Below, one piece after another: positions 5,546 through 33,918 of a DNA stretch of 64,000 nucleotides; position 1 is the stretch's first letter, and the number at the start of each line of letters is the position of its first letter. The notes beneath the pieces are model-generated. The model did not search any database. It was not told the origin of the DNA and saw only the letters and a list, made by a program, of their open reading frames with translations. The translations under genes were made by a program, and so were the position numbers. Source of the stretch: Natrinema salsiterrestre (GTDB taxonomy: Archaea; Halobacteriota; Halobacteria; Halobacteriales; Natrialbaceae); NCBI RefSeq assembly GCF_029502005.1, contig NZ_JAMQOT010000002.1, positions 186,001 to 250,000 on the forward strand, written 5' to 3'.

Positions 5546-6802
5546 TCAGGGCCAGCTGCCGGCTTCCTCGAACGAGTCAGCGACGCGCTGGATCGCGACG
5601 ACGTACGCTGCGGTTCGCGGGTTCTCGAGATCGTGTTCCTCGTAGGTCTCGACGAGAGCGTCGAAGGCGTCGACGATGACCCCTTCGAGTTCCTCGTTGA
5701 CGCGTTCCTCCGACCAGGAGAACCGCTGCCGGTTCTGGACCCACTCGAAGTAGGAGACCGTGACGCCGCCCGCGTTCGCGAGGATGTCCGGAATGACGAA
5801 GACGTCCTTGTCCTCGAGCACCGCGTCGGCGGTCGGCGTCAGCGGCCCGTTCGCGGCCTCCGAGATGACGTCAGCCTCGACGTCCTCGGCGAGGTCAGCG
5901 TCGATCGCGTTCTCGAGCGCCGCCGGGATCAGCAGGTCGACGTCGAGGGTGAGGACGTCCTCATTGGTGAGCTCCTCCTCGCTGCCCTCGAAGCCGACGA
6001 CGCTGCCCGTCTCGTTCTTGTGGTCTTTCGCCGCCACCGGATCGAACCCGTCGGGGTTGTAGACGCCCCCGCTCGAGTCGCTGGCGGCGACGACGGTCGC
6101 GCCCATCTCGTCGATCAGTTTGGCGGCGATCCAGCCGGCGTTCCCGTACCCCTGCACGGCGACGGTCGCGCCCTCGAGGTCCTTGTCGAGGTAGTCGAAC
6201 GCCTCGCGCGCGGCGAGGACCGTCGAGCGGCCGGTCGCCTCGACGCGGCCCTCGCTGCCGCCGGAGTCGAGCGCCTTGCCCGTGATGACCCCCGGCTCGG
6301 TCGTGTTCTCGAGGGTCTCGTAGGTGTCTTTGATCCAGTTCATCTCCCGCTGGCCCGTGTTCACGTCGGGCGCGGGGACGTCTCGATCCTCGCCGATCAG
6401 CGGGCGGATCTCTTTCGCGAACGAGCGCGTGAGTCGCTCGAGTTCGCTCTCGGAGTAGTCGTCCGGATCGAGGACGATCCCCCCCTTGCCGCCGCCGAGC
6501 GGAATGTCGACGATGGCGGTCTTGTAGGTCATCCAGCCGGACAGCGCCTTGACCTCGTCGCGGGAGACCTGCGGGTGGTAGCGGATACCGCCCTTGTACG
6601 GCCCGCGATCGCCGTTGAACTGCGAGCGGAACGCTTTGAACCGCTCGAGGTCGCCGTCGTCGCGTTCGATCGTGAGGTTCGCCTCGAGGACTCGCTCGGG
6701 GTGTTTGAGTCGCTCGATGACGTCGCCGCCGATGTCGAGGTACTGTGCGGCCTCGTCGATCTGTGACTGGAGGCTCTCGAACGGGTTGGTATCCTCGCTC
6801 AT
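5546..6802 (-). CDS. gdhA: Glutamate dehydrogenase (Glu/Leu/Phe/Val dehydrogenase family)
   Basis: A 418-residue hexameric-type glutamate dehydrogenase, interconverting glutamate with 2-oxoglutarate and ammonia using NAD(P). The glutamate-binding and catalytic lysines are visible: K70 in [12 protein letters not shown]94 in TYKTAIV and K106 in PLGGGKGGI. The dinucleotide-binding domain starts near residue 195 and has GYGNAGW. The length is normal for the family. In haloarchaea the enzyme serves nitrogen assimilation or glutamate catabolism; it also feeds the methylaspartate cycle, and the next gene on the same strand is a CitE-type lyase of the kind used in that cycle. Several paralogues usually exist per genome, so the gene letter is uncertain. 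Confidence 0.95.
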
Positions 6803-6910: not shown

Positions 6911-7768
6911 TCAGCTTTCGTCGGCGGCCGCGGCCCGTTCCCGAATCCGTTCGGCGCGTGCGATCAGCGGCGCGTCGATCATCTCCCCGTCGACCGCGAA
7001 GACCCCCCGTCCCGCCGCGTCGGCCTCGCGTTTGGCTTCGAGGACGCGATCGGCCCACTCGCGTTCCTCGGCGGAGGGCGTGAACGCCTCGTTGATCGGC
7101 CCGATCTGCGCGGGGTGGATCGCCAGCTTTCCGTCGTATCCGAGTTGGATCGCGAAGTCGACGTCCTCCCGCAGTGCGGCCTCGTCCTCGAAGTCGGTGA
7201 CGAGTGTATCGATCGCCGCGCAATCGTTCGCCGCCGCCGCGAGCACGACGCGTTCCCGCGCGTAGAGTACCTCCGTCCCCTTGGCGGTCCGCGTCGCTCC
7301 GATGTCCGCCGAGAGGTCCTCCGCGCCGAACGCCAGCGCGTCGGTTTCCGGGACGGCCGCGATCTCGGGCGCCTCGAGGACGCCGTCGGCGCTCTCGAGC
7401 AAGGCCAGGACGGGCAGGGACGCGTCGTAGCTGCCCAGTTCGTCGGCGAGCGTGCGAACGTCGTCCGCCGAACCGACTTTCGGCAGCATGAGGCTCTCGA
7501 GGGACTCGCTGTGGTCATCGGCGAACAGCGCGTCGAGATCGTCCGCTCGAGTCGCGTCCGTCGCGTTGACGCGAACGCACACCTCGCAGTCGGGATCGAA
7601 TTCGGGATCGGAAAGCACGTCTCGCACCGCCTCGCGGGCCTCCGACTTCCGCCGCGGGGCGACGGCGTCCTCGAGATCGAAGACGATCACGTCGGCTCCC
7701 GCGTCGGGCGCTTTCCGGCACATCTCTGGTCGGTCACCGGGCGTGAAGAGTACGCTTCTGCGGACCAT
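6911..7768 (-). CDS. CitE-type HpcH/HpaI lyase (probable malyl-CoA or beta-methylmalyl-CoA lyase)
   Basis: A 285-residue member of the HpcH/HpaI aldolase/citrate lyase beta family. It shows the family pattern RSVLFTPGDRPEM at the N-terminus, the metal-site DLEDAV segment near residue 32, and GYDGKLAIHPAQI in the C-terminal third. Such proteins reversibly cleave 3-hydroxyacyl-CoA esters such as malyl-CoA, methylmalyl-CoA and citramalyl-CoA. Haloarchaea use one in the methylaspartate cycle, and the neighbouring glutamate dehydrogenase is compatible with that role, but the exact substrate is inferred. I start at the ATG at 7768 (MVRRSVLF), because the nine residues that an upstream start would add do not look like family sequence. 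Confidence 0.85.
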   Translation of the reverse strand: MVRRSVLFTPGDRPEMCRKAPDAGADVIVFDLEDAVAPRRKSEAREAVRDVLSDPEFDPDCEVCVRVNATDATRADDLDALFADDHSESLESLMLPKVGSADDVRTLADELGSYDASLPVLALLESADGVLEAPEIAAVPETDALAFGAEDLSADIGATRTAKGTEVLYARERVVLAAAANDCAAIDTLVTDFEDEAALREDVDFAIQLGYDGKLAIHPAQIGPINEAFTPSAEEREWADRVLEAKREADAAGRGVFAVDGEMIDAPLIARAERIRERAAAADES

Positions 7769-8181
7769 GCTGGTCGTTCCGACAGCCAGGGTCAAAACCG
7801 TCGGTGTGGCGGCGAACCGGTACCGATCGCTCGATCGGCCCGTTTTCGACCGGCGCTACTGGGAGGCCGACACTGTCGGACGGATCGACCTCGAGGCAGG
7901 TGCGATGGCGTGGGACGGACACCACACTCAGAGTGAAACGCGGTCGAACGAACCCGGGGACGGAGAATCGGATGGGACGGGTCCGGACCGATCCGTCCGG
8001 GAACCGTAGAGTATGCGGCTCGTTGGAGGCGATTTCGGGAGTCTGCGTCGGACGATTCGCGATTAATTCACCGACGACACATTGCTGCCCAGATCAGGAA
8101 TTCAGTAATCGACTCCGTATTCGATTTTGATCGAGAGAACGACACTATCCGCCTGACAGGTAAGACACCATCAGTATGGTA
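7769..8181. other. 413-base stretch without a convincing gene
   Basis: The stretch holds the upstream region of the CitE-type gene and then becomes visibly poorer in GC from about 8040. Short open frames exist on the plus strand (one ending near 8009 contains DRRYWEADTVGRIDLEAGAM), but none has a clear start signal or family resemblance, so I do not call a gene. Confidence 0.4.
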
Positions 8182-8304
8182 CTATTCGTCTGAGTCGCGG
8201 TTGTCCTGTTCGTCTGACTGATCGCGGTGTAGCCCATAGAGTCTGGCCACTATGGGAATCATTGCGACCACGACGAATAGAATAGTTACGAAGATTTCGA
8301 CCAT
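8182..8304 (-). CDS. 40-residue single-pass membrane protein
   Basis: A tiny frame from ATG at 8304 to TAG at 8182. The product starts MVEIFVTILFVVVAMIPIVA, one clean transmembrane helix of about 20 residues, followed by RLYGLH and a very acidic tail (DQSDEQDNRDSDE). The hydrophobic helix plus acidic cytoplasmic tail is the usual shape of haloarchaeal small membrane proteins, which argues for a real gene. Codon use is poorer in GC than that of neighbours, and the segment lies in the low-GC part of an accessory stretch. Function is unknown. Frame, length and composition are seen directly; expression is inferred. Confidence 0.55.
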   Translation of the reverse strand: MVEIFVTILFVVVAMIPIVARLYGLHRDQSDEQDNRDSDE

Positions 8305-8478
8305 CGATCTGTTATTATTTATCTAAGAGAGCTGTCCTACTATTTTCGATGTGAGTGGGATATACTCACTGTACCGAACGCGAGTTTCACAGCGAGGACT
8401 GAATACAGAATCCGTGCTCTCGATCGGTATCCGCGGCCTCAATTTTGGTCGACTCCATTCGCGACGAGTGAAAACCGC

Positions 8479-9981
8479 CTACGAGGACGCGTTCCACTCC
8501 CGCAACTCGCCGTCGACGACGACCTCGCTACCGACAGCCTCGAACGTGACTCCACCGTAGGCGACGCTGCTACCGGGCCCCGCGTAGACGCCCGCGTCGC
8601 CACAGTCCGCCGCTCGAGCGGTCGTCAGCGTCGCATCGACGTTCTCTCGGAAGCGGAACGCCTGATCCGACGCTCCCTTGGCCGTCACGGTACTCAGTTT
8701 CAGGTCGTCCATGTCGTCGAAGAGGATCGAGTTCGTGAACGCTCCGTCGACGATGGTGTTCGATATTTCGGCACCGTCGAATCCGGCCGCGTAGATTCCC
8801 GATCCAGCGGCCAGTCCCCGGTTGTCGGTCCTGATCGTGACGTTGGTTATCGTCAGCTCTCGTCGGCCGCTCTCGAGCTGTCCGAGCGAGATCCCCCTCG
8901 CGTTCTCGATACACGAGACGCGGTCGATCGTCAGATCAGCGATCTCGTCACCGGTGTCACCCCTGATCGCCGCGTACAGGCAGCCGGTGATGTAGCCGTC
9001 TCTGATCGTGATCGACTCGTTGCCGTTCCGGTGCATGTGGACGCCGTACTCGGGGCCGTTCTCCGGATCGATCTCGAAGTTCTCGAGCGTACAGTTCTGC
9101 GTCCGCGTCCCGTCGCTTCCGGTCAACGACTCGTCGGTGCCGTCCCAGATGCTGTTCGACGCGATCTCCGACGTCTGATTGTCGAACTGTATCGGCGCGT
9201 TCGACCCGGCGTCGCCCCCTCGAGTCGCCCAGTAGCCGTCGATAGTGACGTTCGTGGACGACACGACGTCGATGTGATGGTAGTAGATGCGGTCGCCGTA
9301 GACGTTTTCCAGTCGAACGTTTTCCGCGTGTGCGAGCATGATGCCGTTCGTTTCCGGCGAATCGATTCGGACGTTACGGATCCCCCAGTTCGATGCGCCA
9401 CCGTACTCGACCCCGTCGTAGCCCCTGTTGGAGACGAGGGCCCGTCCCTCCTCGCCGTCGGGGCGCGATCCCTCGAAGACCGTCGCGCGACCCGCGCCCA
9501 GCAGGATCGTATCGTCGCCGATCAGCGGCGTCCGCTCGAGGACGTACCGTCCGGGCGGGAAGTAGACGATCCCGCCGCCAGCTGACTCGACTTCCGCGAG
9601 AAGGTCGTGGACGTCCCGACCGACCTCGGTTTCGCCGTCGCCCTCGATCCCGTGGGCTTCGACGTTCCAGACGGGCGTTTCCGCGGTACGCGCGTCGACG
9701 AACTCCGCCGCTTCGAAGTGGCTCGTTCCCGGAACCGGCTGTTCAGAACTCCCCCGTCCGCCGAAGTACACCCAGTCCTCGTCTGCGGCGTCCCAGCGCC
9801 ACGTGATTCCCTGATCGGTCGCGTGGTAGAGTTCGTCGTCGTACTCGCCCTCGGCGGGGCGGTCGCTAATCGGTCCCCGAACGATCGCGTGTTCGTCGAC
9901 GGCCTCGACCGTGTCGGTGTGGTCCCACTCCTCGCCTTCCTCGAACGTGCCCAGGTCGAGTCGCGGCGTTCGCTCGCCCAC
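8479..9981 (-). CDS. Right-handed parallel beta-helix protein (pectate-lyase superfamily fold)
   Basis: A 500-residue protein. Residues 105-145 carry the opening of the pectate-lyase-3 type fold (GIEGDGETEVGRDV and GGGIVYFPPGRYVL). From about 160 to 470 there are repeated short strands with Asn-rich turns typical of beta-helix coils (LENVYGDRIYYHHIDVV, LTITNVTIRTDNRG). Residues 1-85 form a separate N-terminal module with several Trp residues. The family acts on or binds polysaccharides outside the cell, yet this frame has no signal peptide of its own. It starts at a GTG two bases after the stop of a 49-residue Tat-lipoprotein frame, so the two may be a split secreted protein. Substrate is unknown. 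Confidence 0.8.
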   Translation of the reverse strand: MGERTPRLDLGTFEEGEEWDHTDTVEAVDEHAIVRGPISDRPAEGEYDDELYHATDQGITWRWDAADEDWVYFGGRGSSEQPVPGTSHFEAAEFVDARTAETPVWNVEAHGIEGDGETEVGRDVHDLLAEVESAGGGIVYFPPGRYVLERTPLIGDDTILLGAGRATVFEGSRPDGEEGRALVSNRGYDGVEYGGASNWGIRNVRIDSPETNGIMLAHAENVRLENVYGDRIYYHHIDVVSSTNVTIDGYWATRGGDAGSNAPIQFDNQTSEIASNSIWDGTDESLTGSDGTRTQNCTLENFEIDPENGPEYGVHMHRNGNESITIRDGYITGCLYAAIRGDTGDEIADLTIDRVSCIENARGISLGQLESGRRELTITNVTIRTDNRGLAAGSGIYAAGFDGAEISNTIVDGAFTNSILFDDMDDLKLSTVTAKGASDQAFRFRENVDATLTTARAADCGDAGVYAGPGSSVAYGGVTFEAVGSEVVVDGELREWNASS

Positions 9982-21856: not shown

Positions 21857-22125
21857 CGCGTGTTTCGAGGCCCGCTCGCTCCCGTGGTCCGAGCGCCCCA
21901 CTCGATGCGATCCCACAGCCGCTCATAGCCGTAATAGGTCCCCGTCTTCACCAGATTCGCGGCGATCCCGATGTTGAGCGCGTCGCCGACGTCGCCGACG
22001 AACAGCCAGGCGATCGTGACCGTGATACAGAGCATGACGAACCGATAACAGACGGTCTTCACGATCACCCGTGACCGGCCCTGAAGCGGCTGGCCGGCGA
22101 GGACCGAACTACTGCGGAGCGACAT
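21853..22125 (-). CDS. DUF2061 membrane protein
   Basis: A 90-residue membrane protein of the DUF2061 family. The family signature is visible as KTVCYRFVMLCITVTIAWLF and GDALNIGIAANLVKTGTYYGYERLWDRIEWG, giving two membrane helices with a characteristic YYxYERLWxxIxWG end. The function of the family is unknown; elsewhere members are sometimes fused or adjacent to sulfate-activation genes. It overlaps the upstream XdhC gene by 17 bases and the downstream Cys-rich protein by four, so it is firmly part of the operon. Its presence in a CO dehydrogenase locus hints at a membrane role in sulfur or metal supply, but this is inference. Confidence 0.85.
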   Translation of the reverse strand: MSLRSSSVLAGQPLQGRSRVIVKTVCYRFVMLCITVTIAWLFVGDVGDALNIGIAANLVKTGTYYGYERLWDRIEWGARTTGASGPRNTR

Positions 22126-23278
22126 CGCCCTCCGACTCGACGGTCACGCGGTCGTGAATGTGCCCCTCTCGGGTTCGCAGGTGGCGCGGCGTCCGATCGT
22201 TGGAGACCGCCAGTACCTCCGCGACGATACTGTGTGCGATCTGGTAAGGGGACCCGCCCCCGAGGTCGAGCCCGATCGGCGTGTACAGCGACGACAGCGT
22301 CGCCTCGTCGAACGTCCGCCCTTCGTCTTTGAACGCCGCGAGCATCTCCTGAAACCGCTTTTCCGGCCCCATCAGGCCGACGTACGGAACGGGCGAGTCC
22401 AGTAACCCCTCGATCGCCAACCGATCGTCGACGAAGTTGTGCGACATGACGACCGCGTACGTGCGCTCGTCGAGATCGATCGCGTCGGCGACGGCTCCCG
22501 GCGAGGTCGTCAGCGTCTCGTCGGCGTCCGGAAACCGCTCCTCGAGGTCGACGCTCCCGCGGAAGCCGACCACGGTGACCCGGAAATCGTTCTTCGCGGC
22601 CAGTTCCGTGACCGGCCCGACGTCGTGACCCGACCCGAACACGACGAGATCCGTCGGCGCGGCGATCCCGTCGGTGAAGACCGCGAGCGATCCCCGCTCC
22701 GACTCGAGTTCGACGACGTCGGCGCGGCCGCGCTCGGCCAGCTCGCCCGCCGGCCCCGAGAGTTCGGCGGGCCACTCCGACGCCGGCGCTCCCGTCGGCG
22801 TCGTGAGCCCCTTCTCCTCCGAATGGTAGTACGCGCGGTCGCCCTCCTCGAGCCGGCCGCTCCGGCCCTCGAGAACGGTGAGGACGGCGACGTTCCGCCC
22901 GTCCGCGAAGGCCTCGACGGCCGGCCGGTAGGCCTCGGTCAGCGGCTCCAGCAGGACGTCGATGATCCCGTTGCAGCCGACGCCGAGCCCCCAGACGTCC
23001 TCGTCGCCCTCCATCAGATCGTAGGTCACCAGCTCCGGGCGGCCGCGTTCGCGGACGGACTCCGCCGCCGCGAGCAGTTCGTCCTCGAGGCAGCCGGCCG
23101 TAATGCTCCCGACGCCCTCGCCGGCGTCGTCGAGGAGCATCTTTGCGCCCGGCCGTCGGTACGCGTTCCCCTCGACGTCGATGATCGTCGCCAGGACGTC
23201 CGTCCCCGCCGCGTCGAGTCGCTCGTGAACCCGCTGTACTACCTCGGTCTCCGGAACGCTCCAGTTGCTTCGTGTCAT
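22109..23278 (-). CDS. XdhC/CoxI-family molybdenum-cofactor maturation protein
   Basis: A 389-residue XdhC family protein with both domains: the N-terminal XdhC_CoxI domain (residues 10-110, with GSITAGCLEDEL and a GVGCNGIIDVLLEP segment), and a C-terminal Rossmann domain starting near residue 200 (LVVFGSGHDVGPVTELAA) and ending YQIAHSIVAEVLAV. Family members bind molybdenum cofactor, help its terminal sulfuration and insert it into xanthine-dehydrogenase-type enzymes. The gene is four-base coupled to the DUF364 gene upstream. A second XdhC, fused to a YHS domain, lies in the same operon, so the two may have divided the work. The ATG at 23278 (MTRSNWSVPETE) is favoured over an upstream frame. 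Confidence 0.92.
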   Translation of the reverse strand: MTRSNWSVPETEVVQRVHERLDAAGTDVLATIIDVEGNAYRRPGAKMLLDDAGEGVGSITAGCLEDELLAAAESVRERGRPELVTYDLMEGDEDVWGLGVGCNGIIDVLLEPLTEAYRPAVEAFADGRNVAVLTVLEGRSGRLEEGDRAYYHSEEKGLTTPTGAPASEWPAELSGPAGELAERGRADVVELESERGSLAVFTDGIAAPTDLVVFGSGHDVGPVTELAAKNDFRVTVVGFRGSVDLEERFPDADETLTTSPGAVADAIDLDERTYAVVMSHNFVDDRLAIEGLLDSPVPYVGLMGPEKRFQEMLAAFKDEGRTFDEATLSSLYTPIGLDLGGGSPYQIAHSIVAEVLAVSNDRTPRHLRTREGHIHDRVTVESEGDVAPQ

Positions 23279-24177
23279 TGTCTGGTCTGTAACGAGTCGA
23301 TATCCCGGTCGTTCACCGCGTACACTTTGCGGACGCCGATATCGTGCAAGTCCGTCCCGCACGCGCCGGCCTCGACGGCCTCACGAACCCGGTCGCGGTC
23401 GGTCACCGACGCCCCGGCGACGACGTCGACGCCGGCGTCGAACGCCGGTGCAGGAAGCACCGACGCCGTCGCTCCGATCAAGACCACCGTCGACGTCGCC
23501 GGTGCGGCCTCGAGATACGCCTCGAGCCCGCCGTAAATGAACGCGGAACCCGTGACGAAGATCACGTCGGCGTCCGCCATCGCCGCGCTCGCTTCTGTCG
23601 GCGGGAACGTCGTGACGCGGACGCTCTCGGGTACCGAGATCGTGCCGACGTCCCGCCGTTCGATGACCCGAACGTCGACGTCGGCGAATTTCCGGAACGC
23701 CGGGCGAAAGAGGCCGACCGTCGCGATCACGTCGACGTCCGGGTCCAGGAGGGCCATCGGATCGCCCGGCTCCCAGTCGACGAACGGCGCCGACAGCGCG
23801 TTGACCGCCGCGACGCCGAGCGCGGTCTCGACCGACGGTTCCGCCTCCCCGTCGCCGGAACCGTCGGTGGCCTCGCCCGACGAGTCGCTCCGCGGCCGCG
23901 TCGCCCACTCGAGGAGCGTGTCGAGGTCGACGCCGTCGGCGGGCTCCTCGAACGCGATCGTGGTCCCCGCGCCCCCGGACGGGCGGTGAGCGAGGCCCGC
24001 ACTCCGTCGGCCCTCGGGTGTCCCCTCGGCGCCGGCCGCGTCCTCGTCCGCGGGACCGACGCTCGCTTCGACCATGACCGCCGCCGTCCCGACCGTGACG
24101 CGCTCGCTGCACGCTCCGTCGAGCGCGCTCATCGACCGGAGACGGTCGACGACGGCCGGAAGGATCGGCTCGATCAT
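23275..24177 (-). CDS. DUF364 (putative heavy-metal chelation) Rossmann-like protein
   Basis: A 300-residue protein. The C-terminal half has the DUF364 pattern: IATVGLFRPAFRKF, a middle segment VIERRDVGTISVP, then ADVIFVTGSAFIYGGLEAYL, VVLIGATASVLPAPAFDAGVDVVAG and a closing helix. The N-terminal third (TVGTAAVMVEAS, and a Ser/Gly/Glu-rich stretch at about 95-112) matches the DUF4213-like half usually found with it, but is interrupted by an acidic insertion. The family is listed as a putative heavy-metal chelation protein and is often near molybdenum enzymes. Four-base overlaps on both sides tie it to coxE and XdhC. Its presence suggests a metal or cofactor chaperone role here (inference). 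Confidence 0.8.
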   Translation of the reverse strand: MIEPILPAVVDRLRSMSALDGACSERVTVGTAAVMVEASVGPADEDAAGAEGTPEGRRSAGLAHRPSGGAGTTIAFEEPADGVDLDTLLEWATRPRSDSSGEATDGSGDGEAEPSVETALGVAAVNALSAPFVDWEPGDPMALLDPDVDVIATVGLFRPAFRKFADVDVRVIERRDVGTISVPESVRVTTFPPTEASAAMADADVIFVTGSAFIYGGLEAYLEAAPATSTVVLIGATASVLPAPAFDAGVDVVAGASVTDRDRVREAVEAGACGTDLHDIGVRKVYAVNDRDIDSLQTRQ

Positions 24178-25592
24178 CCGGCATCGCCTCCGTCGGGTTC
24201 GGCTCCGATCCGCCGCGGATCGTGTTCGTATCCGATCGGCCCGTCGGTCCCGCGGCGCTCGAGCTGTCGCGCGGCCTCGGCGAGATCGGACGGTCCGGCG
24301 AAGCCGAACAGCCCGTCGACGTACGGGAGACAGGTCGCCATGCCCCGCGAGCTGGGTTCGTAGGCCGGCGAGACCGCCAGCGGATTGAGCCAGACGACCG
24401 CGTCGGCCCGGCGGGCCAGCCAAGTGACGCCGTCCTCGAGGGCTTCCGGGTCTCCGACGTCGAGGCCGTCGCTGACCACGACGACGACGGTTCGGCGATC
24501 AACCGCGTGGGGGTGGCGTCGCCGGAGCGTCTCGAACGCGCCGCCGATCCGCGTCCCGCCGCCCCACTCGATCTCGGCCTCTCGGAGCGCGGTGGCGGGA
24601 TCGCCGTCCGCACGCTCGAACTCCCTGGTCGCGTCGATCAGGTCGGTATCGAACAGGAAGACTGAGCCCCTGCGAGCGGTGTCCTGTAACCGTTCCGCGA
24701 CGGCGAGTAGCGTGTCTCGGTCGATGGTATCGAGGACGGAGCCGCTGACGTCGATCAACAGGCAACAGCGGAGTTCGCTCGGGACCGGTTCGCGCGTCGG
24801 GAGTTCCATCGCGGTCCCGCCGGTCCCGAGGCTCTCCCGGAGGGCCCGCCGTGCGTCGACGCGGTCGCCGCGCTCGGCCCGCCGGGTGCGCCGTCCCGAG
24901 ATCGTCGCGAGCGCGGCGACGAACCGGTCGATCGCCGCGCCCTCGCTATCGGACAGCGAGGCGCCGTCGGCGGCTACGGGCTCGCGGTCGCCGACGGCGC
25001 TATACCGACGCGCGGCGCCGTCGGCGGCGTCGACCGCCGTTTCGCCGGTGGCGTGCCGGCGCCCGGTCGAAATCCTGACGTCGACGCTCTCGGTCCCCTC
25101 GCTCGCGTCGGGCGTCGACGCTTCGGCGTCGGACAGGAACTCGGACTCGGCGTCCGACTCGAGGTCGGCCGCCGGCTCCGTCTCGGACTCGTCGCCGTCG
25201 GTCGCGGGAGTCCCCTCGTGGGTCGCGATTCGGTCGATTCCGGTCCGCAACCGGTGCCAGAACGTCGGAAACTCCTCGTCGAAGACCGCACCGTCGTCCG
25301 CGCCGGTCAGCAGCGTCGCTCGCAGCGCGTCCGCGGCGGGCTCCCGGTCGGCGAGACCGACCACGGAGAGCGCGCGCGCTGCCTCGAGCGTTCCGTCCGC
25401 CGCCACCGTCGCGCCCTCGCGGCGGAGCCGCCCCACGAACCGAACGAGTTCCGTCAGGACGTGCTTCCGGGCGCCCTCGAAGTCCGGCACGGCGTCCCCG
25501 CTCGCTCGGTCGAGGCCCCGCACCACGCGCCGCTCGGCGTCGGCTCGGGAGCCGTCGTCGACGGGGTTCGAGGGGGTCCGATTTGGAGACAT
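24174..25592 (-). CDS. coxE: CoxE-like von Willebrand A domain protein
   Basis: A 472-residue cytoplasmic protein of the CoxE/VWA-containing family. Residues 15-120 form a helical region, 125-235 an acidic low-complexity linker, and 270-460 the VWA domain with the metal-binding site DVSGS (281-285) in LLIDVSGSVLD, plus GGGTRIGGAF and VVVSDGLD. CoxE works with the AAA ATPase CoxD in building the CuSMoO2 centre of CO dehydrogenase, as shown for Oligotropha (Afipia) carboxidovorans. The gene overlaps coxD by one base and the DUF364 gene by four. The long acidic linker is longer than in bacterial CoxE and fits halophilic adaptation. Confidence 0.88.
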   Translation of the reverse strand: MSPNRTPSNPVDDGSRADAERRVVRGLDRASGDAVPDFEGARKHVLTELVRFVGRLRREGATVAADGTLEAARALSVVGLADREPAADALRATLLTGADDGAVFDEEFPTFWHRLRTGIDRIATHEGTPATDGDESETEPAADLESDAESEFLSDAEASTPDASEGTESVDVRISTGRRHATGETAVDAADGAARRYSAVGDREPVAADGASLSDSEGAAIDRFVAALATISGRRTRRAERGDRVDARRALRESLGTGGTAMELPTREPVPSELRCCLLIDVSGSVLDTIDRDTLLAVAERLQDTARRGSVFLFDTDLIDATREFERADGDPATALREAEIEWGGGTRIGGAFETLRRRHPHAVDRRTVVVVVSDGLDVGDPEALEDGVTWLARRADAVVWLNPLAVSPAYEPSSRGMATCLPYVDGLFGFAGPSDLAEAARQLERRGTDGPIGYEHDPRRIGAEPDGGDAG

Positions 25593-26623
25593 CAGTCGGT
25601 CGGTTCGATTCGGTCGTCGGCGGCGGCCGCGGCCGCCTGCAGGCGCTCCAGCAGTTCGGTATCGACGCGCGTGACGTCCTCGACCTCCTTGAGGAGGCAG
25701 CCGATCGTCCGTTCGATTTCGTCCGTCGAGAGCGATTCGGCCTCGCCGTCGGCCCGAAGCGAGGCGACCGCTCGCGCCCAGTCGAGCGTCTCCGCCACGC
25801 CCGGCCGTTTGAGGAACGATTCCTCCCGGAGCCGTTCGACGACGGCACAGACTTCGGCCGCGATCGCCCCGTCGAGTTCCGGCACCTTGCGGGAGACGAT
25901 CTCATACTCCGTCTCGAACGACGGCGGGTCCACGTGCAGGTACAGACACCGCCGCTTGAGCGCGTCGCTGAGTCCCCGCGTTCGGTTCGACGTGAGGACG
26001 ACGATCGGCGGATTCTCGGCGCTGACCGTCCCCAGTTCCGGAATCGACACCTGATAGTCCGAGAGGAGCTCGAGCAGGAAGGCCTCGAAGGCCTCGTCGG
26101 CGCGGTCGATCTCGTCGATCAACAGAACCGGGGACCGGTCCCCGCCGGCGGTCAGCGCGCGCAGGAGCGGCCGCTCGAGCAGGAACTCGTCGTCGAAAAC
26201 GGACTGGGGGCGCTCCCCCTCGGCGGCGGCTCCGGAGCCGGAATGGGATGCCGCGCCGCTCGCGTCATCGATTGCGTCCATCGATTCAGGTCCGGTCCCG
26301 CCGGCGACCGTTCCCTCGTTCGACTGCACCGCGAGCAGCTGTTTCGTGTAATTCCACTCGTAGAGCGCGTTCTCGGCGGTGAGTCCCTCGTAACACTGGA
26401 GCCGGATCAGTTCGGTGTCGAACCCCTCGGCGAGGACCTTGCCGAGTTCGGTCTTCCCGCTGCCCGGTGGCCCCTCGACGAGCAGGGGCCGCCCGAGCTG
26501 GAGGGCGAGCTGGACCGTCGTGACCACGCGGTCGTCGGCGACGTAGTTCTGGCGCTCGAACCGCTCGCGAATAACGGACTCGGACAGCGTCTCGGCGGGC
26601 GTTCGGGGCGTCTCTCCCGTCAT
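25592..26623 (-). CDS. coxD: CoxD-like MoxR-type AAA+ ATPase
   Basis: A 343-residue AAA+ ATPase of the MoxR/CoxD group. Walker A is GPPGSGKT (51-58), Walker B LLIDEIDRAD (167-176), and sensor 1 is at VVLTSNRTRGLSDALKRR. The segment YEGLTAENALYEWNYTKQLL is typical of CoxD-like proteins. In bacterial CO oxidisers CoxD is a membrane-associated chaperone needed to insert sulfur and copper into the molybdenum centre. An acidic/Gly/Ser insertion lies at about residues 103-143. It is four-base coupled to the XdhC-YHS gene upstream and overlaps coxE by one base. Start at 26623 (MTGETPRTPAETLSES). Confidence 0.92.
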   Translation of the reverse strand: MTGETPRTPAETLSESVIRERFERQNYVADDRVVTTVQLALQLGRPLLVEGPPGSGKTELGKVLAEGFDTELIRLQCYEGLTAENALYEWNYTKQLLAVQSNEGTVAGGTGPESMDAIDDASGAASHSGSGAAAEGERPQSVFDDEFLLERPLLRALTAGGDRSPVLLIDEIDRADEAFEAFLLELLSDYQVSIPELGTVSAENPPIVVLTSNRTRGLSDALKRRCLYLHVDPPSFETEYEIVSRKVPELDGAIAAEVCAVVERLREESFLKRPGVAETLDWARAVASLRADGEAESLSTDEIERTIGCLLKEVEDVTRVDTELLERLQAAAAAADDRIEPTD

Positions 26624-27780
26624 GCCGATTCCATCGCCTCCTCGTCGGTCGCGAGATACTCGTCGGGATCGGTTCGGAAGGAGTCCGCACAGCCGTGACA
26701 ACAGAAGTAGTAGGTCGTCCCGTCGTGGGCGACGCTCGCGGAGTCGGCCGGATCGACCGCCATCCCGCAGACGGGATCGGTGACCCGCTCGTCGGCCGAT
26801 GTCGAGTCGTCGGTCGCGTCAGTACCGCCGGAATCGGGGGCTTCGGCCGTCGCGTCGGCGTCACCGGCATCGGTCGACTCGCCGTCGGCCGATCCGCCGC
26901 TCGAGCCGCTCCCGGACGCGACGGTCGTCTCGCTGTCGGCCCGGACGTCGATCAGTTCGGCGAGCAGGCTCGTCGCGATCTCCGGCCCGGTGGTCGCCGA
27001 GATGTCGACGCCGGCCGGGTTCGTGACCGCCTCCCGAACGGCGTCGGGATCGCGATCCAGGAGGCCGGCGGCCCGCTCGACGACCTCGTCCGCGCGGCTA
27101 TCGCTCGCGACGAGGCCGACGTACGGCGCGTCCGCGAGCACGCCGGCGGCGACGCCGCGGGCATCGTACTCGCCCATCGAGGCGACGACGACGAACGGTC
27201 CCGCACCGACCGCGTCGGCGATCTCGTCCGGCTCGAGGGTGGAGATCACGGTTGCTCTGTCGGGAAGGTCGGCCGCGGCCGCGTCCGGGTCGACGACCGC
27301 GATCTCCACGTCGAGTTCGGTCGCCAGCGTGACCAGGGACCGCGCGATCGGCGAGTCGCCTACGACGAGGAGCCGCGTCGCCGGAATCATCGGTTCGACG
27401 AATATCTCGAGGGTGCCCTCGCTGTGACACATCATGGGAAAGGCCGCGAGGCCGGGGCGATCGACGTCGTCGGGATCGGGTGCGAGGCCGATCAGTCGGG
27501 GTTCGCCCTCGGCGATCGCCGCTCTGGCCTCGCTGGCGACGCGGGACTGCGCGCAGGCCGCACCGCCGACCCACCCGTGGAGGTCGCCGTTCGCCGTGAC
27601 GAGCGCGCGATCGCCGACGTTCGCGGAGACCGGCGGCTCGCGGCGGACGACCGTCGCCCGGGCGTAGGGCTCCTCGCGGTCCCGCAGGGCGTGCTCTCGC
27701 TCCGCGAGGTCGCCGTCGGTCGCGACGGCTGTTCGATCGCTGGTCGTCTCGTCGTCGGCGTCTGGTGTATCTGCCGTCAT
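26620..27780 (-). CDS. XdhC/CoxI-family protein fused to a C-terminal YHS metal-binding domain
   Basis: A 386-residue protein. Residues 30-130 form a shortened XdhC_CoxI domain (WVGGAACAQSRV, MMCHSEGTLEIFVEP), and 135-275 the XdhC Rossmann domain (LLVVGDSPIARSL, VVVASMGEYD, YVGLVASDSRADEV). Then comes an acidic linker and, at 333-376, a YHS domain with C338 (DPVCGM), C360, C361 and C364 (YYFCCHGC). YHS domains occur in copper and heavy-metal transport proteins. XdhC handles molybdenum cofactor sulfuration, so the fusion physically joins molybdenum-cofactor and metal chemistry. It starts 130 bases after coxL and overlaps coxD by four bases. I know of XdhC proteins in most cox loci, but a YHS fusion is unusual to me. 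Confidence 0.88.
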   Translation of the reverse strand: MTADTPDADDETTSDRTAVATDGDLAEREHALRDREEPYARATVVRREPPVSANVGDRALVTANGDLHGWVGGAACAQSRVASEARAAIAEGEPRLIGLAPDPDDVDRPGLAAFPMMCHSEGTLEIFVEPMIPATRLLVVGDSPIARSLVTLATELDVEIAVVDPDAAAADLPDRATVISTLEPDEIADAVGAGPFVVVASMGEYDARGVAAGVLADAPYVGLVASDSRADEVVERAAGLLDRDPDAVREAVTNPAGVDISATTGPEIATSLLAELIDVRADSETTVASGSGSSGGSADGESTDAGDADATAEAPDSGGTDATDDSTSADERVTDPVCGMAVDPADSASVAHDGTTYYFCCHGCADSFRTDPDEYLATDEEAMESA

Positions 27781-27910: not shown

Positions 27911-30394
27911 TCAGTCGTCGGCCGTGCCGCCGCTTTGCTGGTCGTCGAACTCGAGGCTGACGTTGTCGGCGGGATCCATCGACAGCCCCGCTTCGTCGAG
28001 TTTCTCCCAGACGGTGTCGGGCGTCATGGGCATCTCGACGTGGCTGATCCCGCCGTGAGACATCGCGTCGACGACGGCGTTGACGATCGCCGGCGGCGAG
28101 CCGACGGTCGGCGATTCGCCGACGCCCTTCGCCCCGATCGGGTGGTGGGGCGACGGCGTGACGGTGTGTCCCGTCTCGAACTCGGGGATCTCCATGGACG
28201 TCGGCAGCAGGTAGTTCATGAAGTCGCCGCCGGTGACGTTACCGTTGTCGTCGAAGGTGACGTGCTCGAGCATCGCCGTCCCGATTCCCTGGGCGAGACC
28301 CCCGTGGATCTGGCCCTCGATGATCATCGGGTTGATTCGGTTCCCGCAGTCGTCGACCGCGACGAACTTCTCGAACTCGACCTCGCCGGTCTCGCGGTCG
28401 ACCTCGACGACCACGATGTACGAGCCGAAGGGGTAGGTCATCTCCGGCGGGTCGTAGTAGTTGATCGCCTCGAGGCCGGGCTCCTCGCTCTTCGGGTGGT
28501 TCATGTACGCGCCGGCGGCGATCTCGGTGATCGAGATCGACCGGTCGGGCGCGCCGGTGACGTGGAACTGGCCGCTCTCGCGGTCCCAGTCGATGTCCTC
28601 CTCGGCGGCCTCGAGTTCGTTGGCCGCGATGGCTTTCGCCTTCTCGCGTACTTTCCGGGAGGCGACGGCGGCCGCCGCGCCCGCGACCGGCGTACTTCGG
28701 GAGCCGTAGGTGCCGAGGCCGTAGGGGTCGGTGTCGGTGTCGCCGTGTTCGACGGTGATGTCGTCGACGTCCATCCCGAGCTCCTCGGCCACGATCTGCG
28801 CGAACGTTGTCTCGTGGCCCTGACCCTGGGTCTGGACCCCGACCCGCACCGTCGCGTTGCCGGTCGGGTGGACCCGGATCTCGGCGGAGTCGAACATCTC
28901 GACGCCCGCGATGTCACAGGACTGGCCGGGACCCGCCCCGACCACTTCGGTGAACGAGGAGACGCCGATGCCGAGGAGCTTGTCGGCGTCCTCCTCGATC
29001 CGGCGCTGTTGCTCCTCGCGGTAGTGATCGTAGTCGGCCATCTCGAGGGCCTTGTCCAGCGCCTTCTCGTAGTCGCCGGAGTCGTAGTTCCACCCGGTCG
29101 CGCTCTCGTAGGGGAACTGCTCGGGCTGGATGAAGTTCTTCCGCCGGACCTCGGCGGGGTCCATGTCGAGTTCGTCCGCGAGCACCTTCACCATCCGCTC
29201 GATGAGGTAGACCGCCTCCGTCACGCGGAACGAACACCGATAGGCCACCCCGCCCGGCGCGGTGTTGGTGTAGGCCGCCGTCAGCGTCCCGTAGGCCGTG
29301 TCGATGTCGTACGACCCGGTGAAGATGTTGAAGAACCCGGCGGGGAACTTCGAGGGCTGGGCGACGGCGTTGAACGCGCCGTGGTCGGCCAGCACGTCGG
29401 TTCGGACCGCCTGGATCTCGCCGTCCTCGGTCGCGGCGATCTCGCCGGTCATGTCGTAGTCGCGGGCGAACCCGGTCGACTGGATGTTCTCCGAGCGCTC
29501 CTCGACCCACTTGACCGGCTCCTCTAAGACGTACGACGCCGCGGCGGCGACGACGTAGCCCGGGTAGATCGGCACCTTGTTGCCGAACCCGCCCCCGACG
29601 TCCGGGCTGACGATCCGGATTTTGTGCTCGGGGATCCCCGAGACCTGCGCGAACAGCGTCCGGTGGATGTGGGGCGCCTGCGAGGTCATGTGGACCGTCA
29701 GCTTGTCCTTGCCGGGATCGTAGTCCCCGACCGCTCCGCAGGTCTCGATCGGCGCGGGGTGGAGCCGCTGGTAGAGCATGTCCTCCTTGACCGTGACGTC
29801 GGCCTCCTCGAAGGCCTTCGCGGTGGCCTCCTCGTCGCCGGTCTCCCAGTCGAGGCAGTGGTTGTCCTCCTTGCCCTCGATGTCGTCCCTGATCACCGGC
29901 GCGTCGTCCTCGAGCGCCTTGTCCGCGCCGATAACGGGATCGAGCACGTCGTAGTCGACGACGACCTTCTGGGCCCCGTCTTTGGCCGTGTACCGGTCGG
30001 TCGCGATGACCGCCGCGACCTCCTGGGACTGGAACTTGACCTTGTCGTTGACCAGAACGTCCTGCGTGTCGTCCATCAGCGTCGGCATCGTCGCGAGGTC
30101 GTGCTCGAGCAGGTCCTCGGCCGTGAGGACGGCGACGACGCCGTCGACCTTCAGCGCCCGCGACTTGTCGATGTTCTCGATCCGGGCGTGTGCGTGCGGA
30201 CTGCGAACGATCTCGCAGTGGAGCATCCCCGGTTTCTTGATGTCGTCGACGTAGTTGCCCCGGCCGGTGATGAAGCGCTGGTCTTCCTTTCGTTTTACCT
30301 CCTCGCCCATCCCGCCGCGGCCGTGCCCGCAGTGTTTCTCGGGCTGTGGCCCGCCGTCTTCGGCCTCCGCGAATCGTTCGGAATCGCTGCTCAT
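27911..30394 (-). CDS. coxL: Aerobic carbon monoxide dehydrogenase, large (molybdenum) subunit, form I
   Basis: An 827-residue molybdopterin subunit of a CO dehydrogenase that oxidises CO to CO2 and gives electrons to the respiratory chain. The decisive motif is AYRCSFR (residues 384-390), the form I signature whose cysteine (here C387, C388 in Oligotropha) binds copper; form II and xanthine dehydrogenases have other residues there. Other active-site parts are VGGGFGNKV (267-274), [11 protein letters not shown] (523-533) and E760 in KGVGES, matching the essential glutamate. Length and residue numbering match the bacterial enzyme closely. The N-terminal 30 residues are an extra acidic piece containing HCGHGRGG. 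It is four-base coupled with coxS. Confidence 0.97.
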
Positions 30395-31050
30395 TCGCTC
30401 TCACCTCCGGAAATCGAATCGTGGTCGCGATCGGTCGTCGGCCCACCACAGCAGTTCTCGACGCCGCAGTCGAACTCGTCGTCCTCGTCGGTCAGCCCGG
30501 CCGGCGTGACCGTCGAGCCGTCGGCGTCCGTGACGACACCGCCGTCCGCGGCTGCGATCTCTCCCTCCTCGAGTTCGTCCGCGGCGTACTCGATCGAGCG
30601 GACGATGTTCTGGTAGCCGGTGCACCGACAGAGGTTGCCGCTGATCGCCTCGCGGATCTCCTCCTCGTCCGGGTCCGGATTGTTATCGAGCAGTGCCTTA
30701 CCGGACATGATCATCCCGGGCGTACAGTAGCCACACTGCAGGCCGTGTTCCTCGCGGAACCCCTCCTGCAGCGGGTGCAGGTCCTCGCCGGCCTCGGGGA
30801 GGTCCTCCATGCCCTCGACGGTCATCAGTTCGCTCCCGTCCGCCTGCGTGGCGAACATGAGACAGGACTTGATCGGCTTCCCGTCCTTGAGGACGGTACA
30901 CGCCCCGCAGTTGCCGGTGTCACAGCCGATGTGCGTGCCGGTCAGGTCCAGTTCCTCCCTGATCGCGTGGACGAGCAGCTGCCGCGGTTCGACGTCGATC
31001 GTGTGTTCGGTGCCGTTGACCGTCAGCGTGATTTCTCGCGTGTCTGTCAC
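30391..31050 (-). CDS. coxS: Aerobic carbon monoxide dehydrogenase, small (iron-sulfur) subunit
   Basis: A 219-residue subunit with two [2Fe-2S] clusters that pass electrons from the Mo-Cu site to FAD. The plant-type cluster uses C43, C48, C51 and C63 ([12 protein letters not shown]...SC). The second uses C106, C109, C141 and C143 (QCGYCTPGM and CRCTGYQNI). Bacterial CoxS is about 160-170 residues, so residues 160-219 are an extension. It is acidic and ends with CGVENCCGG (C195, C200, C201), an extra cysteine set not needed for either cluster. The gene is four-base coupled to coxM and coxL in the form I order M-S-L. Confidence 0.97.
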
Positions 31051-31934
31051 TGTGATACCCTCCGTTTGACCAGTCCCGCGCGTTCGGCTGCGTCGCCGAG
31101 CGCGCGCTGGGTGAGGACGTTTACCATGCGTTCCTTGTAGCCGGCGTCGCCGTGCTCGTCCGATTCGGGGTTGGACTGCTCGGCCGCCAGCTCGCCGGCG
31201 CGTTTGAACACCTCGCTGCCGGGCCGCTCGCCCTCGAGGTGGTCCTCGGCGTCGGTCGCCCGGACGTTCGTGATGTCGACGGCCGTGAGACCGACGTCGG
31301 CGGTCTCGATCCGGCCGTCCTCGTCGAGGACGAGCCGCGCGGCCGAACCGGCCATCGCGTAGTCGCCGACCTTCCGTTTGAGCTTGTGGTAGGCACTACC
31401 CTCGCGTGGGGCCGGTGTCGGGACTCGGATCTCGGTGATGAGCTCGTTCTCGTCGAGGGTCGTGTCGTACGGCAACAGGAAGAAGTCCTCGGCGGGGATG
31501 ACCCGCTCGCCGTCCGGGCCCTGCGCGACGATTTCGCCCTCGTGGGCGAGCAGGACGCTCCCCCAGTCGCCTTTCGGATCCGCCTGCGCGATCGCGCCGG
31601 CGACCGTGCCGCGGTTCCTGATCTGGGGGTCTGCAACCAGCGGGGCTGTATCCGCGAAACTGCCGTACTGCTCGTCGATCAGATCGGACTCCTCGACGTC
31701 GGCGTGGCGCGCGAGCGCGCCGATCCTGAGCCAGCCGTCGTCCTCCTCGAGGTAGTCCAGCCCGTCGATGGCGTTGATGTCGATCACGGTCTCCGGAACG
31801 GCGAGCCGAAACCGGAGCATCGGTACCATGCTCTGCCCGCCGGCCAGGATCGCCCGATCGTCGAGGCTCTCGAGCAGACTCACGGCCTCCTCGACGGTAT
31901 TCGGCTCGTGGGTCTCGAACTGTGCCGGTTTCAT
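31047..31934 (-). CDS. coxM: Aerobic carbon monoxide dehydrogenase, medium (FAD) subunit
   Basis: A 295-residue flavoprotein subunit of the molybdenum hydroxylase type. FAD-binding motifs are [15 protein letters not shown] (residues 31-45) and [18 protein letters not shown] (107-124). The C-terminal CO_deh_flav_C domain starts near residue 175 with [15 protein letters not shown]. It takes electrons from CoxS and passes them on to the membrane quinone or cytochrome pool. Length agrees with bacterial CoxM (about 288). The ATG at 31934 overlaps the coxG stop (ATGA), and its own stop overlaps the coxS start. A longer upstream frame shadows coxG and is not part of the gene. Confidence 0.96.
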
Positions 31935-32524
31935 AGCATCCCGCGGATCCGGTCCGTGATGCCCGAATCCGTCTCGTCGACGTCGCTCATCTGTGTCTCG
32001 ATGTCGCTGAAGAAGTTGTTCACGATCTTGTTGGCGACCGGGTTGATGACCCGCGAGCCGAGCTGGGCGATGCGTCCCGAGATGTCTGCCTCGGTCCACC
32101 ACTCGATTCGCGATCCCTCGCCGTCCTCGAGCGGGTGGATCTGCATTCCCGACTCCATGCTGAAGCTACTGCCGCTGGCGGTTCCCGTTCCCGTCGCGGT
32201 CATGATGAAGTTCTCCTCGTCGCGTTCCTCGATCGTCACCGACGTCTCGAAGCGGGGCTTGACGCTCCCGACGCCGACCTGCATCAGCGCGGCGTACTCC
32301 TGGCCCTCGACGAACGCCCGCGCGGCGACGGCCTCCGGATCGGCCTCGGGGAGCGTCTCCGCGTCCTCGTCGGCCTCGTAGTCGTCGTAGCTGAAGTCGT
32401 CGTCCATCGGGGTGATGTACTGACACCCCTTCAGCGAATTTCGGACGGCGATCGGGTCCGAGAGGACGACCCACGCTTTCTCCGGCGGAACGTCCTCGAG
32501 TTCGAACTCCCCGTCGAACTCCAT
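31931..32524 (-). CDS. coxG: CoxG-like SRPBCC-fold protein of the CO dehydrogenase locus
   Basis: A 197-residue CoxG family protein (SRPBCC fold). It opens EFDGEFELEDVPPEKAWVVLSDP, the family's beginning, followed by LKGCQYI, VGVGSVKPRFETSV and a C-terminal helix containing RIAQLGSRVINPVANKIVNNFF. Such proteins are thought to help attach CO dehydrogenase to the membrane or its quinone; recent work on Mo hydrogenase/CODH relatives supports quinone handling, though not proven here. An acidic insertion (residues 45-65) is haloarchaeal. It is the first gene of the operon. An upstream in-frame GTG (32533) exists, but the ATG at 32524 is preferred. A TATA box lies about 50 bases upstream. Confidence 0.9.
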   Translation of the reverse strand: MEFDGEFELEDVPPEKAWVVLSDPIAVRNSLKGCQYITPMDDDFSYDDYEADEDAETLPEADPEAVAARAFVEGQEYAALMQVGVGSVKPRFETSVTIEERDEENFIMTATGTGTASGSSFSMESGMQIHPLEDGEGSRIEWWTEADISGRIAQLGSRVINPVANKIVNNFFSDIETQMSDVDETDSGITDRIRGML

Positions 32525-32584: not shown

Positions 32585-32640
32585 CCTGCACTATGTGCAT
32601 ACTATTTACCACAGTACATGATATCCCCTACCACACAGAT

Positions 32641-32670
32641 AAACATGAGTGTTTCCCGACAAACACGTTT
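32641..32670. promoter_or_regulatory. Two tandem palindromes ahead of moeA (candidate operator)
   Basis: AAACATGAGTGTTT (32641-32654) has perfect five-base arms, and AAACACGTTT (32661-32670) four-base arms. Both read AAAC...GTTT. Their centres are 18 bases apart. They lie 19-48 bases before the moeA ATG, in the 164-base region shared with the cox operon. A regulator binding here could control both directions. Confidence 0.4.
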
Positions 32671-32688
32671 AGTCGTTTATTTAGGTTT

Positions 32689-33918
32689 ATGACGAGAGAC
32701 AAACCCCATGCCGGCGACGATCTGATCGAACTGGACGCGGCCGTTGACCGGGTTCGAGCGCTCCGAACGGAGTGGCTGCCGTCCCTCGAGACGGAACGCG
32801 TCTCCCTCGACGGCGTCGCCGGACGGACGCTCGCGGAGCCGATCCGCGCCCCGGTCGACGTGCCGGCCCAGAGTCACGCGACGATGGACGGCTTCGCGTT
32901 CGACGCGACCGACGAGTATCCGCTGACGGTGGTCGACGACCCGGTATACCCGGAGGACGAACCCCCGGCGCTCGAGTCCGGCACGGCGATCCGGATCGCG
33001 ACCGGCGCGCCGCTGCCCCGGTCGGCGAACGCGGTGCTCAAGCGCGAGGAAGCGACCGTCGACGACGGCCGGCTTACGGGGACGCCGATCGAGCCCGGCC
33101 AGTACGTCTACCAGCGCGGGAGCAACGTCAGCGAGGGGGAGAGACTGTTCGAGGCGGGGGAGCGGCTCGGTGCGAAGGACGCGCTGTTGCTCGGCGATCT
33201 CGATATCGACGACGTCGCCGTCCGCGAGCGCACGTCGGTCGGACTGCTCGCGACCGGTACGGAGATCCACGAGGGGCGCCACCGGGATCTCGACTCGCCG
33301 ATGCTGGCCGGTCTCGTCCGCTCGTGGGGCCACGAGGCGACGTACGAAGGCTCGGTCCCCGACGAGAACGACCGAGTCGAGTCGCGAATCGACGAGCTGG
33401 CCCGCGAGTACGACGTCGTCGTCACGACGGGCGGCACGAGCGTCGGCGACAAGGACTACGTGATCCGCACCCTCGCCGAGCTCGGCGACGTGCTGTTCCA
33501 CCGGGTCCGACTCCGACCGGGCAAACCGATCGCCGTCGCGCGGCTTCCCGACCACGACGCAGTGGCGATCGCGGTCCCCGGAAAGCCGGTCGGTGCCTAT
33601 CTGGTGACGGCGCTCGTCGCTCGCCCGTTCTTTACGGGCGACGCGTCGCTGCCGACGGTGTCCGCGCGGATGGCCCGCGACGTCGGAATCGCCACCCCAG
33701 GCTTCACCTACGCGATTCCCGTCACGCTAGCGGACGGCACTGCGATGCCGCTGGGTCACGCCGACTCCGCACTGCCGATCTACGAGGAGACCTTCGACCC
33801 GAGCGTGCTCTCCTCGAGCACGCGCGCCAGCCGCGCCGACGGGTTCGTCCTGACGACCGAGGCCGTCGCCGCCGACGAGACGGTCGCCGTCGTTCCCTCT
33901 CCCGTCCTGGAACGATGA
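32689..33918 (+). CDS. moeA: MoeA-type molybdopterin molybdenumtransferase
   Basis: A 409-residue MoeA protein that inserts molybdate into adenylated molybdopterin. It shows all domains: the N-terminal ring (GRTLAEPIRAPVDVPAQSHATMDGFAF), domain II with ATGAPLPRSANAV, the molybdopterin-binding MoCF domain (VGLLATGTEIHEG, VVTTGGTSVGDKDYV), RPGKPIAV and AVPGKPVGAYLV, and a C-terminal beta domain. It is divergent from the cox operon, and its stop overlaps the start of the MocA-like gene by four bases. The placement points to cofactor supply for CO dehydrogenase rather than housekeeping. The ATG at 32689 follows the tandem palindromes closely. Confidence 0.94.
   Translation: MTRDKPHAGDDLIELDAAVDRVRALRTEWLPSLETERVSLDGVAGRTLAEPIRAPVDVPAQSHATMDGFAFDATDEYPLTVVDDPVYPEDEPPALESGTAIRIATGAPLPRSANAVLKREEATVDDGRLTGTPIEPGQYVYQRGSNVSEGERLFEAGERLGAKDALLLGDLDIDDVAVRERTSVGLLATGTEIHEGRHRDLDSPMLAGLVRSWGHEATYEGSVPDENDRVESRIDELAREYDVVVTTGGTSVGDKDYVIRTLAELGDVLFHRVRLRPGKPIAVARLPDHDAVAIAVPGKPVGAYLVTALVARPFFTGDASLPTVSARMARDVGIATPGFTYAIPVTLADGTAMPLGHADSALPIYEETFDPSVLSSSTRASRADGFVLTTEAVAADETVAVVPSPVLER

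Follow-up and report, generated by a model that had tools for sequence, protein, structure and literature searches.

A CoxF maturation factor with a fused YHS domain accompanies form I CO dehydrogenase in haloarchaea and may hold copper for the Mo-Cu site

The gene at 27780-26620 of the window (the whole analysed stretch of 64,000 nucleotides from Natrinema salsiterrestre, contig NZ_JAMQOT010000002.1) is coxF of an operon for form I (Mo-Cu) CO dehydrogenase, and its product ends in a YHS domain. This CoxF-YHS protein is probably a form I CoxF variant with its own metal-holding module, in which YHS would serve as a tethered copper carrier delivering to the apo-enzyme. The published CoxF model for how copper reaches the Mo-Cu site in aerobic CO dehydrogenase, as presented in excerpts of PMC4240915, was built on matches to short motifs, and the protein concerned has no recognised copper domain. 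With the fused variant come four candidate ligand residues and a small separable domain, in haloarchaeal as well as bacterial CO oxidisers. Its recurrence in archaea and several bacterial groups points to where copper may be held before insertion.

The XdhC-YHS fusion proposed in the initial annotation is borne out by the reading frame, which runs unbroken on the minus strand from an ATG at 27780 to a stop at 26622-26620 (386 aa), the stop overlapping the start of the next gene. All three Pfam domains lie above their curated cut-offs, with E-values of 1.2e-13 for XdhC_CoxI, 2.5e-17 for XdhC_C and 5.1e-13 for YHS; the YHS match (PF04945) scores 49.2 bits against a gathering score of 30.3. Both XdhC domains are found in all 86 CoxF proteins compared. 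Fold searches return the XdhC-family crystals 2we8 and 3on5, with matches confined to the XdhC part; the YHS part is barely probed by them.

The two modules are joined by a linker that had been described as acidic and about 55 residues long; its acidity holds (27% Asp plus Glu), and at about 45 residues it is slightly shorter than stated. Linker length varies between 21 and 75 residues in the 38 of 41 haloarchaeal CoxF copies measured. AlphaFold2, run on 15 aligned sequences, gives residues 285-329 a pLDDT below 50 and places them between a confident XdhC core and a confident YHS domain, for which block means reach 88-95 at residues 331-370. The predicted disorder between well-modelled parts confirms a flexible linker and agrees with the earlier suggestion of separately moving modules. 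Some haloarchaeal linkers contain a His-rich run or CC pairs (L068, L088, L058-L061).

Table 1. Features of the cox region, with positions given in the window
Feature	Position	Strand	Remarks
coxF-YHS	26620..27780	-	XdhC-family CO dehydrogenase maturation factor with C-terminal YHS, 386 aa
XdhC part of coxF-YHS	26953..27684	-	XdhC_CoxI ~27490-27684; XdhC_C Rossmann domain ~26953-27372; Pfam
acidic linker of coxF-YHS, residues 285-329	26794..26928	-	predicted disordered
YHS domain of coxF-YHS	26650..26784	-	D335, C338, C360, C364 (M = 1)
coxL, large subunit	27911..30394	-	AYRCSFR motif of form I; TIGR02416 1214 bits (cut-off 991)
coxS, [2Fe-2S] subunit	30391..31050	-	Pfam
coxM, FAD subunit	31047..31934	-	Pfam
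coxG	31931..32524	-	PF06240
coxD, MoxR-type AAA ATPase	25592..26623	-	profile matches
coxE, VWA protein	24174..25592	-	PF05762
DUF364 protein (Pfam: putative heavy-metal chelation)	23275..24177	-	Pfam
second XdhC-family gene (CoxI-like), without YHS	22109..23278	-	also occurs at form II loci
MoeA-like gene	32593..33918	+	divergent to cox operon

On the minus strand, the genes follow each other in the order coxG-coxM-coxS-coxL-coxF(YHS)-coxD-coxE-DUF364-second XdhC, with overlaps of a few bases between most neighbours. The translated CoxL contains the AYRCSFR motif and, at 1214 bits, exceeds the TIGR02416 cut-off of 991, and therefore the enzyme of the window is a form I, Mo-Cu CO dehydrogenase. 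A form I coxL thus lies directly upstream of coxF-YHS, in line with the Mo-Cu context that had been assumed for the fusion. CoxF and CoxI are the two known XdhC homologues of cox clusters (PMC2997495, in part). The window protein is assigned by phmmer to CoxF rather than to xdhC2, and it is encoded together with form I coxMSL, coxD and coxE; the CoxF type is absent from the form II loci examined. Identity between the window CoxF and the second XdhC of the operon amounts to only 28% over 167 residues.

Across haloarchaea, the fusion and the form I enzyme occur in the same genomes. Relatives of the window CoxF-YHS with E < 1e-50 are present in 41 of 391 haloarchaeal genomes, the best match in the next genome being 1.4e-19, and CoxL above the TIGR02416 cut-off is found in an identical set of 41; the search scores few candidates per genome, and weaker homologues may be missed in these counts. 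All 41 form I loci that we read encode AYRCSFR or SYRCSFR together with coxF, and in 40 of them YHS lies within the coxF frame. The recurrence of the same fusion in 40 of 41 loci indicates that it is not a frame artefact. The single exception (G020, locus L093) has a CoxF that ends cleanly before coxD, its CoxL retains AYRCSFR, and a search of every frame downstream of its coxF yields no YHS.

As a contrast set, 30 of the 89 places with CoxL-type genes below the cut-off were chosen by hand, with L209 omitted as a second fetch of a genome already counted. The form II motif AYRGAGR is present in 24 of these loci, coxD in 15, coxE in 14 and a second XdhC in 13, whereas none of the 30 examined contains coxF, YHS or DUF364. 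The Mo-Cu link drawn for the fusion in the initial annotation therefore stands in haloarchaea, where YHS follows form I rather than form II (40/41 vs 0/30); the Fisher value of 3e-19 for this comparison is too strong, as related genomes are non-independent samples.

Because coxD, coxE and the second XdhC also occur at the sub-cut-off loci, what haloarchaeal form I loci add to this shared kit comes down, when form II loci are set beside them, to CoxF-YHS and the DUF364 protein. DUF364 is encoded at 38 of the 41 form I loci, and two of the three loci lacking it (L195 and L199) are cut at a contig end. From its sequence and distribution, the DUF364 protein is a second candidate for a form I-specific maturation factor. 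In a separate alignment of 14 DUF364 relatives, H64, C273 and H278 are invariant. The gene is also retained in the reduced cluster of L090, where coxD and coxE were not found.

The fusion is not confined to haloarchaea. When the window protein was scanned against a database, fusions came up at 14 haloarchaeal loci, two of which belong to a single organism, and on one Eremiobacterota contig, on which coxL (AYRCSFR), coxG and the fusion stand in a row. Among 149 Eremiobacterota genomes, 20 encode form I CoxL in full or in large part; CoxF is present on 18 of these 20 stretches, and 16 of the 18 CoxF carry YHS. A profile search adds eight further Eremiobacterota contigs (one belongs to a genome of the set of 20), with five intact YHS domains, one broken (L224) and two CoxF without YHS (L221, L225). 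Seven of the eight have a partial CoxL match; on the short contig of L223 the fusion is present and CoxL is not. In L224 (minus strand, 7981-9051), the coxF frame breaks inside YHS and continues into coxD-like sequence, which could be an assembly error or a true fusion.

In Pseudomonadota, form I CoxL occurs in 17 of 398 genomes and CoxF on 15 of the stretches, with YHS in just one of the 15; YHS is likewise missing from three CoxF-like genes (G679 twice, G654) in two genomes of the sample that lack form I CoxL. The fusion is encoded at three of twelve plasmid loci (Thermomicrobium roseum, Paraburkholderia and Caballeronia), and is decayed in Deinococcus, where the first Cys motif of YHS is lost; the remaining eight loci, that of Oligotropha pHCG3 included, lack it. 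In Thermomicrobium roseum, it directly follows coxMSL and is the sole cox accessory gene seen in the stretch. The search for the XdhC-YHS combination and its gene context thus shows it next to form I CoxL also in Eremiobacterota, Thermomicrobium and Burkholderiales. Records L128-L132 were not recounted, being the same as L114, L115, L117 and L015.

Overall, Pfam places YHS in 60 of 86 CoxF (L126 and L127, which are not form I, were excluded from the alignment). On a tree of these 86 sequences built without the YHS columns, haloarchaea form one group with a support of 100, Eremiobacterota do not form one group, and the YHS state changes six times; the tree comes from a quick method, is unrooted and has long branches, and the order of YHS gain and loss is not readable from it. 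The absence of YHS from 14 of 15 Pseudomonadota CoxF, from eight of twelve plasmid loci and from G020 means that not all form I enzymes require the domain. The suggestion that the fusion joins two chemistries required for a Mo-Cu site accordingly holds as far as the tie to form I in haloarchaea, but not as an obligatory arrangement, since most proteobacterial CoxF lack YHS. Many proteobacterial clusters without YHS have MHYT genes nearby, and the haloarchaeal and Eremiobacterota loci showed none. This raised the idea that MHYT proteins might replace YHS, which we dropped: a weak MHYT match also occurs at two Burkholderia-type loci with YHS (L115, L156), and the split between MHYT and YHS therefore looks like ancestry.

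Within YHS, all 15 aligned sequences have D335, C338, C360 and C364 unchanged (14 haloarchaeal sequences and one bacterial; in alignment A1, L004 is excluded as coming from the same organism as L003); a pattern-based count of these residues is circular and is left aside. According to Linder (excerpts of PMC4626032), the Mycobacterium phlei adenylyl cyclase, which also has a C-terminal YHS domain, is stimulated by 1-10 uM copper only with YHS present, and its copper is probably bound by one Asp and three Cys. Asp335 and the three Cys of the CoxF domain fit this ligand set. The same excerpts report a toluene hydroxylase YHS crystal without metal and cadmium in the related L24e TRASH domain, so the fold alone is no proof of copper. 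From the four conserved ligand-type residues and the one biochemical precedent, we infer that the YHS domain of CoxF binds copper.

Genetic work in Oligotropha links CoxF itself to the copper step. The coxF::km and coxE::km mutants produce a CO dehydrogenase without copper, with molybdenum partly sulfurated, and CoxF has been proposed as copper donor on the basis of a short Cys motif, MCPSHGTM (PMC4240915, in part). Since the enzyme of the coxF mutant is copper-free, the XdhC half is part of the copper step already. The initial annotation, which assigned this half to molybdenum-cofactor maturation, thus needs correcting in one respect: CoxF is more than a Moco factor. The Cys of MCPSHGTM does not serve as a mark of copper; it is invariant in 86 of 86 aligned CoxF, and, judged by eye, a counterpart appears to be present in the second, generic XdhC of the window. 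The fused YHS is a much better candidate for a copper site on CoxF, and we therefore favour a tethered carrier.

We hypothesize that YHS would take up copper via Asp335, Cys338, Cys360 and Cys364 and hold it, probably as Cu(I), and that the XdhC half would dock on the sulfurated apo-CO dehydrogenase. The flexible acidic linker would let YHS swing to reach the docked enzyme, and copper could then pass to the sulfido ligand on molybdenum and to the Cys in the AYRCSFR motif of CoxL. That the metal is copper, that it is held as Cu(I) and that transfer is direct are what we infer from this combination of features.

The CoxF proteins of Eremiobacterota that lack YHS suggest that another metal-binding element might take its place. 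All four (L133, L142, L221, L225) finish in a tail rich in Cys and His, in which two of these residues stand side by side as CC, HC or CH; the last 20 residues contain 3, 5, 5 and 5 Cys plus His. Among 129 tails of other cox proteins from these loci, not one contains a pair of this kind or reaches four Cys plus His in its last 20 residues; the pattern was spotted before it was counted and is based on four sequences. The four frames end cleanly, and no YHS remnant is found in their other frames. Because the CoxF of L225 is ~78-80% identical to YHS-bearing relatives, its exchange of YHS for the tail looks recent. For the most specific form of the proposal, namely that CoxF-YHS is a dedicated tethered donor of Cu(I) to the Mo-bound sulfide of the folded enzyme, combining Moco and copper chaperone in one chain, with YHS exchangeable for a Cys/His tail in some lineages, we regard the chances as even.

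The same tails bear on the possibility that YHS is a copper sensor, reporting copper and switching the XdhC half on, so that the apo-enzyme is processed only when copper is present. The strongest biochemical parallel for a YHS at the C-terminus, that of the Mycobacterium phlei cyclase, is indeed a sensor (PMC4626032, in part), yet the tails that replace YHS in Eremiobacterota resemble ligands rather than a switch domain. A linker of variable length that is predicted to be disordered in the window copy also suits delivery better than rigid allostery, and we consider a sensor unlikely. Somewhat more doubtful still is a structural or docking role, with a zinc-finger-like YHS that binds zinc or no metal and contacts CoxL, CoxE or CoxD. 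The L24e TRASH domain as a small metal-holding fold, the metal-free hydroxylase YHS (both from PMC4626032, in part) and the phenol hydroxylase chains that are the nearest solved sequences to the CoxF domain would all suit such a role. It fits less well with the tight tie of YHS to a copper-containing enzyme form, nor does it agree with the company that YHS keeps elsewhere: among the plasmid matches listed (40 of 96 records), at least ten are YHS-only, and of these eight are annotated as heavy metal translocating P-type ATPase and two are unannotated. That a YHS gene was joined by chance and kept without an important role, as its lack in most proteobacterial CoxF and in G020 might suggest, is very improbable given its retention in 40/41 haloarchaeal and 16/18 Eremiobacterota CoxF and the invariant ligand-type residues of the 15 aligned sequences.

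The preferred reading, YHS as a tethered copper carrier on CoxF, sets the window protein apart from several known systems. Like it, CoxF of Oligotropha (Afipia) carboxidovorans has XdhC_CoxI and XdhC_C and belongs to a form I cox cluster with coxD and coxE; unlike it, the Oligotropha protein is a 281-aa frame with neither YHS nor linker. The XdhC/CoxI molybdenum-cofactor chaperones share both XdhC domains and the fold seen in 2we8 and 3on5, whereas YHS is absent from the second XdhC of the window operon and from XdhC at form II loci. The YHS domains of the Mycobacterium phlei cyclase and of heavy-metal P-type ATPases resemble that of CoxF in the module of Asp and three Cys, C-terminal also in the cyclase (PMC4626032, in part). 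There, however, YHS is joined to a catalytic domain or a transporter, and in CoxF to a molybdoenzyme maturase. A full-text search of the open-licence literature found no paper on the combination of XdhC and YHS, and none of the papers listed by a looser search around CoxF and CO dehydrogenase names a YHS domain. A term search of the available text of two broad studies surveying CO oxidisers with form I (PMC6794299, PMC13203968) gave no mention of CoxF or YHS.

YHS is also encoded in haloarchaea as a free-standing gene. The neighbours of such genes were examined at 11 loci for a link to copper; a P-type ATPase signature is found at four, with a CPC motif only in L175. The genome of the window itself contains further YHS frames on the plus strand of L169, a free-standing one of 48 codons at 6412-6555 and one within a 216-codon frame at 7235-7882.
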